From a virus: a stretch of DNA of 21,845 nucleotides. Location of the stretch: the IMG/VR virus record IMGVR_UViG_3300034062_008862, positions 1 to 21,845 of that record; one strand, 5' to 3'. The notes under the pieces were generated by a model, which worked only from the letters and a program-made list of their open reading frames with translations, was not told the origin of the DNA and did no database searches. The position numbers and the translations under genes are program-made. This document shows, piece after piece, positions 4,724 to 19,579 of this stretch. Each line of letters opens with the position of its first letter. Within the stretch, counting starts at the first letter, position 1.

Positions 4724-6160
4724 TTAGATCGCGGGTTTGAGATAGAAGTTCCAAAATGTGTTTACTAACATCAAATCCTTCGTCATAACTCTAAAAACGC
4801 AATCAGAAATTTTTTCTCTGAGCTCCAAAGCATGATCGCTCTCAACCAAATCAAACTCCAAGCTCTGCAGTATGATTCTACGCACAAGCTCTGCGCACTT
4901 GTCAATGCTTCGCACCACAAGTACACCATTTGAAACTCCCGTGTCTAGATTGATCTGAATTCCCAGCGGATGGGAATCTCTAAGTGTCCTTGCTCGAGTA
5001 TCAAAATGAGCCTGCATCTTGGCAAAAACAAGACTTTTTAAATCAGCAACATCGACTTGTTCCCTGTTCGAGCACCATTCTCTCACTCTGTGATCTGTCC
5101 ACGCAAGTTCTGGAGCATAGATGCGAAGCTGCTCAAGCAGCAAGCTGGCCTCCCCTTCCGCCGGGGATCTATCTTCATGCAACCCCGCAAAGTGTTGTTT
5201 AAAATATTCATCTGTCACTTCAGGAATATAAGCAACGACAGGCTTTCCTTGGGCAAGTGTTGAGGCTAGCTCAGAGTCTTTACCAAGTGTGTCGCTTTCT
5301 TGGGCAAGATATATTGTGCAGCTTGCGCGCCTTAGCATTAGCGCTTCGGCGAGGCCTTTGTCTATCCTATTTTGGCAATATGCCTGAGTCGGATCGAACC
5401 ATCTTAGCTTAAGCTCGCTGAGAGCATGATGCTGAAAAATTTTAGTTGTTATCCTGTTGATTGCCTTGAACTCATGCCTTTCCCGCATTGACGTAGCCAC
5501 ATAAACGTCAAGATGATCTGATGCTAAATAGGCTTCTTGGTTTCTCTTGGCTGTTTCTACTGCTTGCAATCGCCTCCCTTCGAGTTCAAGCATTTCAGGG
5601 TTACCTGGGTTCGCGCTTAGAGCATCTTTAATCTGTCTCTCTATGAGATACCCAGTCAAATATGTGTCTTTTGAGTCAATCTCGATATGTGGCAGTATCG
5701 GAAGGTGTCGAGATTTAAATTTGTAGTCCGCTATCGGCTCTAGATTGAGAAGAGTTCTGCGCAAGTTGACATCTCTAGACAATATCTTAAAGCCGTACTT
5801 AACATTGCCGAACAGGAGAATCGCGAGCTTTCTGAATCTGTTGACAGCATCGTTGAGCTGCTCGCTCGACTCAAAAGCCAATCCAGGTTCGTACTCTGTC
5901 TTTCCATCTAGCAAATATCGAAAAAACTGACTCGTAATGCGATCAAAGCCAAACAGCAAAAGTAGTTCATTTAGCTGGCTGTACCCGAGCCCCTCCCCCG
6001 GCGCATTAAGCACGGACAAGCCAGGGACAGAAGCGTCAATCTGAGCGCTTTGTCCAGTCAACTTCGAAAGTAGCTCCTTTATTTCCGAGTGATTCACTTG
6101 AGTGCCAACAATGGACCAAGCCTCCATCTTAGTCTGCGCCAAGTCCTGAGTCAAGTTCAA
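4724..6160 (-). CDS. TIR/nucleoside-deoxyribosyltransferase-like protein, candidate anti-phage or exclusion gene
   Basis: 478 residues, reversed and AT-richer than everything around it. The start is TTG 6160, with AGAGG about 10 bases before it; ATG 6127 is the alternative. Residues 1-210 are mainly helical and unrecognised. Residues 216-315 form a Rossmann-like core: LDVYVATSMRERHE, then FDPTQAYCQNRIDKGLAEAL, a strand CTIYLAQESD, and DSELASTLAQGKPVVAYIPE. The Glu at 297 followed by GKPVV matches the catalytic Glu region of nucleoside deoxyribosyltransferases and TIR-like NAD-cleaving effectors. The C-terminal domain (398-478, HPLGIQINLDTGVSNGV onward, ending FWNFYLK) is unknown to me and could be a sensor. 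Proteins of this build are often defence effectors. A solitary reversed cargo gene inside a phage packaging operon suits superinfection exclusion. The fold is moderately sure; activity and role are inferred. Confidence 0.7.
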   Translation of the reverse strand: MNLTQDLAQTKMEAWSIVGTQVNHSEIKELLSKLTGQSAQIDASVPGLSVLNAPGEGLGYSQLNELLLLFGFDRITSQFFRYLLDGKTEYEPGLAFESSEQLNDAVNRFRKLAILLFGNVKYGFKILSRDVNLRRTLLNLEPIADYKFKSRHLPILPHIEIDSKDTYLTGYLIERQIKDALSANPGNPEMLELEGRRLQAVETAKRNQEAYLASDHLDVYVATSMRERHEFKAINRITTKIFQHHALSELKLRWFDPTQAYCQNRIDKGLAEALMLRRASCTIYLAQESDTLGKDSELASTLAQGKPVVAYIPEVTDEYFKQHFAGLHEDRSPAEGEASLLLEQLRIYAPELAWTDHRVREWCSNREQVDVADLKSLVFAKMQAHFDTRARTLRDSHPLGIQINLDTGVSNGVLVVRSIDKCAELVRRIILQSLEFDLVESDHALELREKISDCVFRVMTKDLMLVNTFWNFYLKPAI

Positions 6161-9364: not shown

Positions 9365-9589
9365 CTACAGCCGCTGCGGCCGCCGGGCCGTGTCGATCAG
9401 CAGGTTGTGCAGCAGCTCCTTGCTGCTGATCAGCAGGTAGGCCATCCAGGAGCCCGTCAACTTCGGCTCGGCGACGAGATCGCCCCGGCACCCCCTCATG
9501 CCCTTCTCAATCTCGGCCAGCTCCCGGCCGATGTTGCGGACCATCGCTTCGGTGCTCTCACGCGGTGTGGGCCGGGGCGGGATCTGCAT
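9365..9589 (-). CDS. Small hypothetical protein, reversed
   Basis: 74 residues from ATG on the minus strand. Its stop lies three bases from the stop of the LysM/HTH gene, so the two converge with almost no gap. The protein reads like a real one: a polar N-terminus (PRPTPRESTEAMVRNIGREL), a charged middle and a C-terminal helix (WMAYLLISSKELLHNLLIDT) that is amphipathic to hydrophobic. I do not recognise the family. It is one of three reversed blocks in the packaging/head operon, and the second copy of the TGGCAATAGG element lies just beyond its start. It may be an accessory (moron) gene. A longer in-frame start at 9628 would run into that element and is less likely. Confidence 0.55.
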   Translation of the reverse strand: MQIPPRPTPRESTEAMVRNIGRELAEIEKGMRGCRGDLVAEPKLTGSWMAYLLISSKELLHNLLIDTARRPQRL

Positions 9590-9684: not shown

Positions 9685-10581
9685 ATGGCCACTGCCACTG
9701 CTTCCTCCACCTCCAGCACCGCCGCCGCCAGCGGCCAGGGTGCTGAAGACAATTACGCCGCCACCGGCCAGCCGGGTGAGACCACGACTACTGGTGGTCC
9801 CACGGGCGACCCCAACAGCACCGGCAGCCAGGGCGGTTCTGCCGTCAGCGGTGGCGACAGCTCTGGCACTGCTGCCTCCGAGGGCGGTGCTCCCCTGCTG
9901 GACGACAGCCGCCTCACCGAACCCCTGCGGGCTGAGCGGCGCAAGAGCAACCAGCTCGAAAAAGAGATCCGCACCCTGCGCCAGCAGCTGAACCGCTTCT
10001 CCGAGATCAACCCCGAGGAGTACGCCCGCCTGCAGGAGGCCGAACGCCAGAAGCAGATCCTCGAGCAGCAGATGGAACTGCGCGAACGCCAGATGGAGGA
10101 GGCCTCCGCCCAGAAGGTGGCCGCCGTCGCCGCCGAACGCGACGAGGCCAAGCAGCAGATCCTCCAGCTCCGCAAGGACCGCCTGCTGGAGCGGGCCTTC
10201 TCCCAGGCCGAGGGCCGCACTGGTGGGGATGCCAGGGGCACGTTCTTCGACATCTTCAAGGGGCAGCTGGGCACCTGCTTCCGTCTCAGCACCGGCGGGG
10301 ACGGCAAGGACGTGCTCGAACCGCTCGACTCCCAGGGCAAACCCCTGCTCGGCGATGACGGCCGCCCGATGACCACCACAGAGTTCCTCGATCAGATGCG
10401 CGTGCACCCCGTCTATGGCTTCCTGTTCCAGCAGCGGGGTCCGGCCGGCATGCAGGCCGCCGGTGGGCTGACGGTGTCGGGCATCGGCAGCAACGGCGAG
10501 CCGATCAATCCCCAGGCCATGAGCGCCTCTGAGCTCTACCGGGCGTCCTTCGCGGTGAATGGCCGCGGGGCTCGACGCTGA
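9685..10581 (+). CDS. Probable capsid scaffold / assembly protein
   Basis: 298 residues from ATG 9685, chosen because it follows the repeated element; in-frame starts at 9565 and 9622 would put the element inside the gene. Scaffolds shape the prohead and leave before DNA enters. Residues 1-75 are low-complexity Ser/Thr/Gly/Ala. Residues 76-175 form a long charged coiled coil (PLRAERRKSNQLEKEIRTLR, then Glu/Gln/Arg-rich heptads through ILQLRKDRLLERAF). The C-terminal third is compact (GTFFDIFKGQLGTCFRLSTG, FLDQMRVHPVYGFLFQQRG) and ends in a basic tail (NGRGARR), as scaffold proteins often do to grip the capsid. It lies upstream of the capsid gene, but with one small gene and a reversed cassette between. 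Identification is by architecture and position only. Confidence 0.65.
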   Translation: MATATASSTSSTAAASGQGAEDNYAATGQPGETTTTGGPTGDPNSTGSQGGSAVSGGDSSGTAASEGGAPLLDDSRLTEPLRAERRKSNQLEKEIRTLRQQLNRFSEINPEEYARLQEAERQKQILEQQMELRERQMEEASAQKVAAVAAERDEAKQQILQLRKDRLLERAFSQAEGRTGGDARGTFFDIFKGQLGTCFRLSTGGDGKDVLEPLDSQGKPLLGDDGRPMTTTEFLDQMRVHPVYGFLFQQRGPAGMQAAGGLTVSGIGSNGEPINPQAMSASELYRASFAVNGRGARR

Positions 10582-10590
10582 GACCAGCTG

Positions 10591-10977
10591 ATGGCACGGC
10601 GGCCCCGCAGCTTCTACGCCGGACTCTCCTTCCGGCCACCGGAGTCGGTGGCTGCTGCTGCCCGTCGTGCCCTGGAGCGCCGGGCCCAGCAGCCTCCCTC
10701 CAATCGCGGCATGACGCCGGTGGGGCTGGCCCGCGCCCGGCAGCTGCTCCATCGTCAGGAGCTCTCACCGCAGACGATCGATCGGATGGTGAGCTACTTC
10801 GCTCGCCACGAGGTCGACAAGCAGGGCTCCAGCTGGGAGAGCTACGGCAAGGGCCGGCAGGCCTGGGATGGCTGGGGCGGCGACCCCGGCCGCCGCTGGG
10901 CCACGGCTGTCGCCAGACGGATGGATGCGGCGGAGCAAGCAGCTCAGCGCTCAACCAATCCACCGCGCCGCCGCTGA
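10591..10977 (+). CDS. Small conserved phage head-region protein
   Basis: 128 residues, nine bases after the scaffold stop. Residues 44-112 form a conserved-looking block: GLARARQLLHRQELSPQTID, then RMVSYFARHEVDKQG and WDGWGGDPGRRWATAVARRM. I recall this pattern (a YFARHEVDK helix followed by a WGGD-type turn) in small proteins encoded among virion genes of other phages. I cannot name a function. The N- and C-termini are basic and low in order (PPRRR tail). A short DNA-binding or connector role is conceivable. It is the last plus-strand gene before the reversed DoxX cassette, and may originally have been directly upstream of the capsid gene. Confidence 0.7.
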   Translation: MARRPRSFYAGLSFRPPESVAAAARRALERRAQQPPSNRGMTPVGLARARQLLHRQELSPQTIDRMVSYFARHEVDKQGSSWESYGKGRQAWDGWGGDPGRRWATAVARRMDAAEQAAQRSTNPPRRR

Positions 10978-11167
10978 CGCGCGAGTCGATCAACCCCGCA
11001 ACTGCCCGGAGCCTGGAAAACACCGCCGGCCAAACGATCAACACCTCAAAAGGGGAGAAAGCAACACGAAAAAAATCGAAAATTCTCCTCGTATTTTGCG
11101 TTTCAAAATCAGCTCCCTGTAACTCTTTGGAGAGCCCTGTAGCTCCTCATAGAAGAACGCAGACTCG

Positions 11168-11181
11168 GGGGGTATTCCCCC
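11168..11181 (+). terminator. GC hairpin between convergent genes, possible terminator
   Basis: GGGGG (11168-11172) and CCCCC (11177-11181) close a TATT loop, followed on the plus strand by TGTTT. This is the gap between the plus-strand head gene (ends 10977) and the reversed DoxX gene (ends 11243), where a terminator is expected. The T run is short, so it would be a weak one. Upstream, 11040-11110 is an AT-rich patch with a 6-bp GGAGAA/TTCTCC repeat. Confidence 0.3.
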
Positions 11182-11242
11182 TGTTTCCAGGAGCGGCGCA
11201 GGGTGCCTCGGAAATTTTTCAGGTTCTGGGAAATCCCTCGTC

Positions 11243-11617
11243 TCAGTCCCTGCTGTCCTGATCGGCCACCAGCAGCAGGCCGCCCATGATCGCCAGGTTC
11301 TTGAACAGCTGAATCCGCTCCATCTTGTCGGCCACATCGCCGTGGAACAGCAGGGTGGTGGGCACCAGGAACACCAGCAACAGCACCGCTCCTAGTCGGG
11401 CTTTCCAGCCGCTGATCACCAGGGCTGAACCCACCGCCATCAGGGCCATCGCCGCCACCAGCAGCACCGGCGCCAGCGGCAGTCCCTTGGCCGCAATGGC
11501 GCCGGCCACCCCGGCAAAGCCCGTCAGCTTGCCGATCACGGCATGGATGAACACCAGGCACAGCAACACCCGGGCGATGCGGTTCAGCAACGAGGGCTGG
11601 TGGCTCTGCTGGCTCAT
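11243..11617 (-). CDS. DoxX family membrane protein
   Basis: 124 residues from ATG 11617; ATG 11641 is a possible longer start. DoxX proteins are small four-helix inner-membrane proteins, in some bacteria linked to redox stress and in others of unknown role. The sequence shows four hydrophobic segments at about 14-30 (ARVLLCLVFIHAVIGKLTGF), 48-68, 74-92 (AVLLLVFLVPTTLLFH) and 103-117. It also has the family signature of a Gly-Lys-Leu turn after helix 1 and FKNLAIMGGLLL in helix 4. The length is typical. It is reversed inside the phage head operon, an odd place for a cell-type membrane protein, which suggests a captured host gene (moron) that could alter the lysogen's membrane or redox state. 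The family call is firm; the role here is unknown. Confidence 0.85.
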   Translation of the reverse strand: MSQQSHQPSLLNRIARVLLCLVFIHAVIGKLTGFAGVAGAIAAKGLPLAPVLLVAAMALMAVGSALVISGWKARLGAVLLLVFLVPTTLLFHGDVADKMERIQLFKNLAIMGGLLLVADQDSRD

Positions 11618-11746
11618 GGGGGAAAGGTCTGCTGCGGGCATTGTGTGGCCGGTGGCCAGGGTCCGGGTGTTGCTCGCACGATGGGCAGCGAAATGCCCCG
11701 GGGGCCCGCGGGCCCACCGGGGCAAGGGGCCGGAGCCCCTGGCGGC

Positions 11747-11959
11747 TCACAGCACCGCCACGGTGCCAAGCCGCTTGGCCTGCAGCTTTCGGGCCAGCTG
11801 ATGGGCCAGCTGGGCCGGAATGAAGCGGGGCTTCTTCACGGGGCGACCGCGGCGGCCATAGAAGACCACATGGCGCTCAGCATCGGGCGCCTTGATCCCG
11901 TCGGGATAGACGAACACCGCCAGCTGGCGGATCTCGCAGCGGGGAGAGAAGGAGGCCAT
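11747..11959 (-). CDS. Small hypothetical protein
   Basis: 70 residues from ATG 11959; a longer in-frame start at 12037 adds an N-terminus that looks non-coding. Not recognised. The residues read like a folded small protein: a central strand (QLAVFVYPDGIKAPDAERHV), then a basic turn (FYGRRGRPVKKPRF) and an amphipathic C-terminal helix (PAQLAHQLARKLQAKRLGTV). The net charge is positive, so nucleic acid binding is possible but unproven. It lies 129 bases upstream of the DoxX gene on the same strand and may share its transcript. No Shine-Dalgarno is evident. Confidence 0.5.
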   Translation of the reverse strand: MASFSPRCEIRQLAVFVYPDGIKAPDAERHVVFYGRRGRPVKKPRFIPAQLAHQLARKLQAKRLGTVAVL

Positions 11960-12288
11960 CACGAGGAAGGCGAGGGACACCCGCGTCAGGCCTCGGCTGT
12001 ATCGACCCGGCAGAACTTGATGGAAAACCCCATCCATAGGTTTGCAGGAGCTGGATCAGGTCCGGGGTGAGACGGCCGGGGCAGCGGGCTCCCCTTCTTC
12101 CCCTCGCCGACCGTGATTGCTTCCGCCTCCGCCAGTGCTCCACTCCCGCCAGCTCGGTCGTTGGGTCGGCTCGCGGTGGATCGGTGGGCTGCAAGGTCCG
12201 CTGGGCCTCCTGGGCTGTCTGGCCGGTGGTCGCGACCAACAGGAAGGCAGGGCCCTGGGGGAGCCCCGCCGGCTGCTGGCCCTGGCCC
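11960..12288. other. 329-base stretch without a convincing gene
   Basis: Open frames exist on both strands here because of the high GC, but their translations are rich in Arg, Pro, Gly and Ser without protein-like patterns. I see no tRNA, repeat or clear promoter. It may hold the promoter for the 70-residue gene to its left, or decayed coding sequence. Confidence 0.4.
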
Positions 12289-12474
12289 TCAGAAGGGCAG
12301 CAGTGCCTCCAGCTCCGGATCGACCGGCATGGCCGGGGCGGCTGCTTGCTGCTCGAACAGCATCTGGGCCGCCAGCTCAGCCAGCCGCGGCCAGCGCTCG
12401 CTGCAGAAGGCCAGATCTTCCAGCACCTGCCAGGAGAACTGCTGCAGCTGAGCTTTGCGGGACAGAGGGGCCAT
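12289..12474 (-). CDS. Small hypothetical protein with good ribosome site
   Basis: 61 residues from ATG 12474, with GGAG seven bases before the start on the minus strand, the best ribosome site among the reversed genes. The protein is a compact amphipathic helix pair (KAQLQQFSWQVLEDLAFCSE, then RWPRLAELAAQMLFEQQ) followed by an acidic Pro-rich tail (VDPELEALLPF). I do not recognise it. The size, helix pair and reversed position fit a small regulator or accessory protein, but no motif supports a specific role. It may begin a reversed unit with the 70-residue and DoxX genes, although 329 bases separate it from the next. Confidence 0.5.
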   Translation of the reverse strand: MAPLSRKAQLQQFSWQVLEDLAFCSERWPRLAELAAQMLFEQQAAAPAMPVDPELEALLPF

Positions 12475-12728: not shown

Positions 12729-13646
12729 ATGGGCCTCACCCTGATCGAGGCAGCCAAGTACGAGACCCGCCTGGAGCACCTGGCGGTGATCAAGACCTTC
12801 GCTGAGGGCGAACTGCTCAGCTGGCTGCCGTTCATGAACATCGCTGGCGGCGGCCTCTTCTATTCCGTCGAGAAGGAGCTCCCCTCGGTGGGCTTCCGGG
12901 CGGTGAACGAGGGCTACAAGCAGAGCTATGGCGTCGTCGACCCCCAATCCGAGGCCGTGCACCTCTTTGGGGGTGACGTGGATGTGGACCGCTCGATCGT
13001 CGACCTGCAGGGCCCAGAAGCCCGTGCTGCCCAGACCGAGATGAAGGTGCGCTCGATGCGGCTGACGCTGGAGGCGGCCCTGATCAACGGTGATGCCACC
13101 GCCAGCCAGGGCCGGGGCTTTGACGGCTTGGCCCGGCGCCTCTCCCCTGGTGCTGAGATGGCGCTCAACAACGGTGGCGGGGCGCTCGATTTCGACAAGC
13201 TCGATGAGCTGATCGACTCGGTCAACTCTTACGGCGGCCGGAAGTACCTGGTGATGAGCAAGGCGATGCGCCGCCAGCTCAATGCCCTTGCCCGCCAGAC
13301 CGTCGGCCAAGGCGTTTACAACGTGAGCACCAACAACCTGGGGGTGATGGTGCATCACTACCAGGAGTGCCAGATCCTCACCGTCGACCGCGACGCCCAG
13401 GGCCTGGAGGTGCTGGGTTACGGGGAAGCGGGCGGCACCAGCTCGATCTACTGCTGCACCTTCGGGGACCAGGCGGTGACCGGCCTGCAGGGGCCGTTCC
13501 AGGGCCGCTACGGGATTTCGGTCCGGGACCTCGGCGAAGTGCCCGACGCCCCGGTGTTCCGCACCCGGATCGATTGGTACGTGGGCTTTGGCGTCATGCA
13601 CCCCCGCGCCGCTGGCCGGCTGCATTCCATCGCTCCGATCGCTTGA
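12729..13646 (+). CDS. Major capsid protein (HK97 fold)
   Basis: 305 residues. It builds the icosahedral shell. The N-terminus matches the pattern of HK97-fold phage capsid proteins that lack a delta domain: a leading helix (LTLIEAAKYETRLEHLAVIK), a WLPFMNIAGG segment, then the E-loop region with GGLFYSVEKELPSVGFRAVN and GYKQSYGVVDP. The spine helix is in TEMKVRSMRLTLEAALINGD, followed by GRGFDGLARR and the P/A domain with KYLVMSKAMRRQLNALAR. The C-terminus has the DWYVGFGVMHPRAAGRLHSI strand, typical of this group. The length is normal. The start codon abuts a base-paired element rather than a standard Shine-Dalgarno. It is separated from the scaffold by the reversed DoxX cassette. Confidence 0.88.
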   Translation: MGLTLIEAAKYETRLEHLAVIKTFAEGELLSWLPFMNIAGGGLFYSVEKELPSVGFRAVNEGYKQSYGVVDPQSEAVHLFGGDVDVDRSIVDLQGPEARAAQTEMKVRSMRLTLEAALINGDATASQGRGFDGLARRLSPGAEMALNNGGGALDFDKLDELIDSVNSYGGRKYLVMSKAMRRQLNALARQTVGQGVYNVSTNNLGVMVHHYQECQILTVDRDAQGLEVLGYGEAGGTSSIYCCTFGDQAVTGLQGPFQGRYGISVRDLGEVPDAPVFRTRIDWYVGFGVMHPRAAGRLHSIAPIA

Positions 13647-18334: not shown

Positions 18335-19579
18335 ATGGGTTCCTGGAAATCCTCCGGTTCGATCCGCGGTCCTGTCGGACCGGCTGGACCTCAGGGTTCA
18401 CCGGGTGTGCAGGGGCCCCAGGGACCGGCTGGACCGCAGGGGCCTCAGGGGCCATCGGGCTTGCAGGGGCCTGAGGGCCCGGCCGGCGTCGCCGGACCCG
18501 CTGGTCCGACGGGCCCCCAGGGCATCCAGGGCCCGGCGGGGATCGGCATCAACTTCAAGGGTCAGGTGGCGACGGTCGCCAACCTGCCGGCCAATGCGGC
18601 CCAGGGCGACGCCTATCTGGTGCAGGCCGACGACTCCCTGCGGGTGTGGGACACGGGCACCAACAGCTGGGTGAACGGCGGTTCGATCCAGGGTCCCCAG
18701 GGTCCGGCCGGTGTGGCCGGCCCGGCGGGCGCGACTGGTGCCCAGGGCCCCGCTGGCCCGCAGGGACCGCAGGGCATCCAGGGTCCGGCCGGCGCCGATG
18801 GGGCGATCGGCCCCCGGGGAACGGGCTGGTTCACCGGCTCCGGTGCGCCGCCGGCAACGATCGCCGGGGCGGTGGATGGTGATCTCTATCTCGATCTGGT
18901 CAGCGGCACCGTCTACGTGCTCGGCCCGATCCGGGTGGCCGATCTGCCTGCGATCGGCAGTGAGTTCCAGGGCGGCTTCTATGCCGGCCTGATCAGCCAC
19001 ACCGCCAATGGCGTGGCCACCCATGCCTTGATCATTGCGCCCAAGACCGCCGGCTCGCTGCTGAACGTGGCCTGGAAGAGCGCCAACACCGCCAGCACCG
19101 GCACCACGAGCGTCTTCGACGGGTGGGCGAACAGCGAGGCGATGAACAACGCCAGCCATCCGGCGGCCCAGTTCTGCTGCTCGCTCACCATCGGCGGCTA
19201 CGACGACTGGTACCTGCCGGCTGCCCAGGAGTGGGACATCCTCTACCGCTCCTTCAAGCCGGAGGCGACTGCTGCTGGCACCTATTCCGGGGCGGGTTAT
19301 GGCGCCAACCCCTATGCGGTGCCCCAAGGCGGCAACTACACCGACAGCAATCCGGCCCTCACTTCGGTGCTCGCCTTCCGGGCTGGTGGGGCGGAGACGC
19401 TCAAGCACTTCGACGAGAACTACGGCGACGATCCCTTCTTCCACTGGACCTCCACCCAGGCCGCCAGTGGCACCGCCTATCTGCGGATGACCTACATGGG
19501 GGATCAATACGCCGAGGCCAAGACGAGCGCTTCCATCACCCAGGTGCGAGCGATCCGCCGCATCCAGGTGCTGCCGTAA
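18335..19579 (+). CDS. Collagen-like tail fibre with DUF1566/lectin-like tip
   Basis: 414 residues. Two collagen-like Gly-X-Y blocks (about 11-69 and 119-161, GPQGPAGPQ-type) trimerise the shaft. A small domain lies between them ([20 protein letters not shown] to SWVNGG), a module typical of phage and virus fibres. After the second block comes a short beta unit ([20 protein letters not shown]). The C-terminal 210 residues form a globular tip; its last 125 ([49 protein letters not shown]) match the DUF1566/Lcl-C and C-type-lectin-like pattern. The tip probably binds the host surface. It is the only gene of the appendage block with its own copy of the TGGCAATAGG element. Confidence 0.85.

Follow-up and report, generated by a model that had tools for sequence, protein, structure and literature searches.

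A DoxX-family membrane gene as a probable moron-type cargo in the head-gene region of a temperate Cyanobium phage lineage

Morons are genes that carry their own promoter and terminator and are inserted between genes that adjoin each other in related phages. The locus described here resembles the morons of temperate phages in that a gene of the DoxX family is optional, occupies a fixed place between genes that are adjacent in relatives, lies on the opposite strand and is accompanied by a possible -10 element and a hairpin. It differs from them in that DoxX sits in a standing antisense island together with two small genes, s70 and s61, rather than in a bare junction, and its promoter and terminator are putative. 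A second comparison is offered by the auxiliary metabolic genes of cyanophages, such as hli in S-CBS2, which likewise place host membrane and photoprotection genes on a cyanophage; unlike these, DoxX belongs to a temperate lineage, runs antisense and is kept by hosts after prophage decay. In the last respect the locus recalls grounded (decayed) prophages with kept cargo, where cargo is reported to outlast the phage genes (PMC6379469). Here the hosts are picocyanobacteria and the cargo includes DoxX and Hli-like genes.

Relatives of DoxX have been connected with oxidative stress in Mycobacterium tuberculosis, where DoxX forms a membrane oxidoreductase complex with its partners SodA and SseA, and a further relative belongs to a sigma-factor regulon of Haemophilus influenzae that is induced by hypochlorite, as reported in two sources (PMC6930017, PMC7907618). 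The M. tuberculosis protein falls into the same Pfam family as the phage protein and is distant from it in sequence; for the phage DoxX, a redox role with SodA- or SseA-like partners would be an analogy drawn from these distant relatives. Our literature searches found no publication that links DoxX with cyanophage, thylakoid or "auxiliary metabolic gene", and none on the function of DoxX in cyanobacteria; among publications pairing DoxX with prophage, as judged by their listings, none treated DoxX as phage cargo. No DoxX was found in PHROGs, nor at E<=1e-3 in 50,697 phage records. Moron cargo as a kind is well known, and DoxX would be a new example of such cargo. Prophages have been reported to be rare in unicellular cyanobacteria (PMC6157547).

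The DNA analysed is an IMG/VR record of 21,845 bases, referred to here in its entirety as the window. It is a tailed-phage fragment with terminase, portal, scaffold, capsid and tail genes, and close relatives of it lie in Cyanobium and freshwater Synechococcus genomes. The features of the region are collected in Table 1.

Table 1. Features of the island and of its surroundings in the window
Feature	Position	Strand	Evidence or remark
m87, 74-aa antisense gene between g299 and scaffold	9365..9589	-	second cargo site; here without Hli genes
Head scaffolding protein	9685..10581 (longer reading from 9565)	+	phrog_206 2e-16; start 9685 by codon score
g128, 128-aa head-region gene, left bound of island	10591..10977	+	phrog_2859 8e-19; present in close clade
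Hairpin GGGGGG-TATT-CCCCC, possible shared terminator	11167..11181		between convergent g128 and DoxX
DoxX-family membrane protein, 124 aa, probable cargo gene	11243..11617	-	PF07681 E=1.5e-13; hydropathy; homologue starts
CACAAT, possible -10 element, 22 bp before DoxX ATG	11640..11645	-	CANAAT conservation
s70, 70-aa basic protein	11747..11959 (11750-11959 plus stop)	-	29/29 MCP loci; alignment
s61, 61-aa helical protein, divergent from capsid gene	12289..12474 (12292-12474 plus stop)	-	17/29 MCP loci
MCP (major capsid/head protein), right bound of island	12729..13646	+	phrog_212 4e-66

A sequence-only reading of this DNA had described three minus-strand open reading frames, for DoxX and for proteins of 70 and 61 residues, set among the head genes between scaffold and capsid. 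All three are where it placed them, and codon scoring, which was trained on window genes including DoxX but neither s70 nor s61, calls each of them coding; the one amendment concerns the left side, where g128 intervenes and the block does not follow the scaffold gene directly. The same reading held that head operons are otherwise compact, and comparison with four reference phages bears this out. The gap from scaffold to MCP measures 189 bp in P-SS2, 203 bp in S-CRES2 and 55 bp in Paenibacillus phage Unity, and in S-CBS2 194 bp separate MCP from the preceding gene, which is not annotated as scaffold; the capsid proteins of the four are about 43-46% identical. Of the 30 loci compared here, 29 have MCP and 26 have scaffold as well; in all 26, the two genes lie 1,682-10,605 bp apart. 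Measured against these gaps of 55-203 bp, the island is thus inserted between genes that adjoin in relatives, as is expected of a moron.

The identity of the DoxX gene is well supported. Its Pfam match reaches 51.6 bits against a cutoff of 23.6 and spans profile positions 4-85 of 85, and hydropathy reveals three strongly hydrophobic stretches, enough to class the product as a multi-pass membrane protein. The best supported start is the ATG at 11617, since both host and phage homology begins there and codon scoring picks it; starting at 11725 instead would extend the 124-aa form upstream to 160 aa. At 0.68, the GC content of the gene equals that of its surroundings, so that the phage-unlike composition often sought in morons is not seen and this comparison yields no sign of recent capture. 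The composition test says little here because host and phage are both GC-rich.

Upstream of DoxX, 14 of the 15 aligned sequences that cover this region have a CANAAT hexamer, among them the remnants L044 and L046, whose DNA farther upstream is unlike that of the others. The phage and several remnant copies also share a GC-rich hairpin downstream, and the replacement of one G-C pair in L043 preserves the pairing, a compensatory change. A scan for the sigma-70 consensus at DoxX gave no promoter match, and a terminator scan did not flag the hairpin at 11167-11181, which in the window is not followed by a T run. The hexamer and the hairpin may represent a promoter of DoxX's own and a terminator shared with g128, although the consensus scans support neither.

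The other two genes of the antisense block behave differently. The gene s70 is present in the gap at every one of the 29 MCP loci, including those of a clade with an MCP of only about 63% identity (the 63% clade), and s61 is present in 17, with a distant 66-aa relative, c51, in four more from the 63% clade. Judged from this distribution, s70 belongs to the phage lineage, and s70 and s61 are the conserved genes of the site. Neither has a match in Pfam, PHROG or NCBIfam. Their alignments comprise 28 rows with a mean column identity of 74% for s70, and 23 rows with 68% for s61, from which L053 was left out owing to a stop in the given frame. Codon scoring prefers a slightly longer s70 (11747-11980), and the homology alignment fits the 70-aa form. 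An AlphaFold model of s70 (pLDDT 84) predicts beta strands and one helix; a fold search with it against the PDB gave no match at E<=0.001, and its sequence matched none of the solved structures. The model of s61 is of low confidence (pLDDT 72.5). Relatives of s70 also occur in other genomic islands. We rejected the idea that it is a phage-only gene, since 59 of the 300 genomes carry it, often in many copies and also without this capsid gene. It forms a multi-copy family in such islands, with six copies in G196 (L210-L213) and no capsid match there; island copies often lie near c11, c27, c34/c43 and Rad52- or primase-like genes, names assigned by eye.

Around these two genes the contents of the island vary widely. 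In the 63% clade, antisense lysis-type genes lie between s70 and the s61 relative, namely c18, holin-like by eye, and the YkuD-type c21. A PIN-domain toxin-antitoxin pair occupies the island of L051 and L053, and L011:4000-8908 holds a full-length DSR2-type defence protein and a DUF4365 protein between s70 and the capsid gene. Elsewhere we find an AraC regulator (L030), a transglutaminase-like protein (L008), YccF (L052, L053) and a fatty-acid hydroxylase gene (L053). In L030, g128 and s70 are each duplicated around the cargo, as expected if recombination brings cargo in. In two loci, L025 and L033, it is tail genes that surround the s61-s70 or DoxX-s61 stretch.

DoxX is one of these exchangeable contents. 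Among viral contigs found with MCP as bait it is present in one of 16 loci, and a DoxX-baited scan of the same collection returned that contig alone. In 300 Cyanobiaceae genomes, an MCP homologue occurs in 53 and a DoxX homologue in 141. Full-length MCP copies of 94% identity or more number 21; DoxX lies nearby on the same contig in seven of these, and a few of the others are cut by contig ends. DoxX is lacking in 16 of the 29 compared MCP loci, a set that includes several loci retrieved through DoxX itself. In L002-L005 and L008, similarity to the window resumes at about 11237-11285 and 11686-11689, flanking c34 and c43 in place of DoxX (in L008 c34 is called and c43 is not). A YccF-DoxX pair is common to the host loci L054, L055 and L059 and to the phage loci L052, L053 and L058. 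DoxX is therefore exchanged as a cassette, and a cellular gene family stands behind it. A search of viral contigs with YccF brought up one more distant contig, which was not used. The contig of L058 has DoxX alongside phage genes; its assignment to a Bifidobacterium breve metagenome-assembled genome is probably a binning error.

A DoxX tree of 59 rows (51 different) mixes phage and host copies; left out were the partial L064, same-place duplicates (e.g. L110-L117, L122, L127) and any homologue for which no locus had been fetched. Eight changes between phage and host are needed on it, of which branch support forces one; with support this weak, we rejected counting independent transfers from the tree.

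Host chromosomes show what becomes of the gene when the phage decays. The DoxX copies nearest to that of the window (at least 91% protein identity; 83% for L143) mostly adjoin scraps of the same prophage. L047 retains g128 and pieces of scaffold, g299, g172 and portal; L048 and L037 have smaller phage pieces and L043 pieces of scaffold; L045 and L046 have a fragment of g299 and a fragment of an integrase known from L141. On the complete chromosome of L143, broken portal, g299, scaffold and g128 genes occur without MCP. Five copies (L041, L042, L043, L047, L057) share the same host neighbours, which we take, from their sequences, to be a CobW/zinc-transport-like cluster. Phage traces are weak beside L035, L039, L050 and L057, and L042, cut by a contig end, is counted among the remnants by its shared neighbours only.

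In all 14 remnant copies the DoxX frame is open and under purifying selection, with dN/dS of 0.07-0.21 against the window and of 0.15-0.25 across the ten pairs of the five-copy shared-site group. Because DoxX served as the bait for most remnants, finding it in them does not independently show that it was retained; its intactness was not built into the search. A remnant search with g128 as bait gave only two clear places, both in G068, where DoxX is present at one and c34 at the other; two are too few to judge by. These observations suggest that hosts often keep DoxX after prophage decay and hence that it helps the cell. The sequence-only reading had viewed the whole block as captured host genes, had named a gene order universal in the lineage and silent in lysogens as the finding that would speak against this, and had proposed a search for the block in host chromosomes and other prophages. 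For DoxX the view is supported: the gene is cellular, optional, confined to a discrete cassette and intact beside prophage scraps. For s70 and s61 it is not supported, since their position is a feature of the lineage; the gene order is universal for s70 and largely so for s61, and not for DoxX.

The lineage has a second cargo site, which holds genes of the high-light-inducible (Hli) kind. In the phage L036 (4759-6040), two short genes, Hli1 and Hli2, lie with c54 between g299 and m87. Hli1 matches Chloroa_b-bind at E=1.3e-4, just above the cutoff, and Hli2 has the chlorophyll-binding motif only; the name Hli is our presumptive label for the pair. The gene c54 encodes a 74-aa membrane-like protein. 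It was rejected as phage-specific because it occurs in 99 of the 300 genomes, and a search of viral contigs found no relative of it. Thirteen loci were examined with c54 as bait (L244-L256). Four of them (L247, L248, L253, L254) are phage-like, have the cassette in the same place as L036 with both Hli genes complete, and cover both MCP clades; nine are remnants in whose stretch phage genes are fragmentary or absent, and both Hli genes are complete in six of these and degenerate or missing in three. In L045, L046 and L146 no more than about 0.7 kb separates DoxX from an Hli gene, and L036 and L143 each combine DoxX with Hli-like genes in a single phage or remnant. DoxX is absent from the stretch examined in the six remnants that keep both Hli genes, which indicates that the two cargoes usually travel apart.

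In our view, a temperate Cyanobium phage probably carries DoxX as moron-type cargo in a cassette, with a benefit to the lysogen through a role in membrane (photo-)oxidative stress. According to this model, a host membrane gene with short flanks, which may hold its own -10 element and hairpin, sits antisense in a lineage-specific island that also contains the lineage genes s70 and s61; the remaining contents of the island are swapped among phages, probably by recombination in the shared flanks. From its orientation opposite to the late operon we infer that DoxX could be expressed in the lysogen without late transcription. The protein would then act in a cell membrane against oxidative or photo-oxidative stress, with a benefit strong enough for hosts to keep the gene as the rest of the prophage decays. 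Protection of the membrane of a photosynthetic cell is the most economical reading of its function, given the Hli-like genes as the other recurrent cargo and the stress-linked relatives of DoxX.

The strongest competitor, to which we give a minor share of belief, is that DoxX serves the phage itself in lytic infection, sustaining the function of the photosynthetic membrane as an auxiliary metabolic gene. High-light-inducible genes are a known cargo of lytic cyanophages, which counts in its favour, as do the position of hli directly after the capsid gene in S-CBS2 and the purifying selection on the phage copies of DoxX (median dN/dS 0.25). Yet DoxX runs antisense to the surrounding late genes, and it stays open and constrained in remnants that are unable to make phage. 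We think it improbable that DoxX is a neutral passenger in a tolerant site, with no selected role in phage or lysogen, as the very varied island contents and the many copies without DoxX might suggest; the low dN/dS against the window and the lack of a stop codon in any of the 14 remnants speak against it. Least credible is a role as a small membrane protein in lysis or superinfection control, for which the antisense holin-like and YkuD-type genes of the 63% clade offer a parallel, but the lysis-type genes of the close clade (c11, c60) lie at the opposite genome end and DoxX is widespread in hosts and absent from most phage copies.

A broader extension of the moron-type reading, that a widespread temperate Cyanobium phage lineage carries an assortable photo-oxidative-stress package (DoxX; the Hli pair and c54) in its head region, that hosts repeatedly domesticate these genes and that lysogeny thereby supplies tolerance of light stress, is put forward tentatively and seems to us rather doubtful as a whole. 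The series from intact prophage to lone DoxX and Hli genes offers a natural experiment on which of the genes brought in by phages are of use to the host. With a capsid homologue in 53 of the 300 Cyanobiaceae genomes, and seven in one of them, lysogeny and its cargo are open to study in culturable freshwater strains. The latter genome, G001 (Cyanobium sp. Cruz-8D1, the source of L030; about 4 Mb), has four capsid-family copies close to that of the window and three of the 63% clade, and DoxX-positive copies are among those that this strain carries.

Two further genes of the window deserve mention. Between sig247 and the portal gene, a minus-strand orphan of 478 aa (4724-6160) has a low GC content of about 45%; in L141 its place is occupied by an integrase, and we rejected it as a defence gene as Pfam and PADLOC gave no match. 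In the tail region, 18335-19579 encodes a collagen-like protein of Gly-X-Y repeats, whose tblastn matches fall on related frames on both strands.
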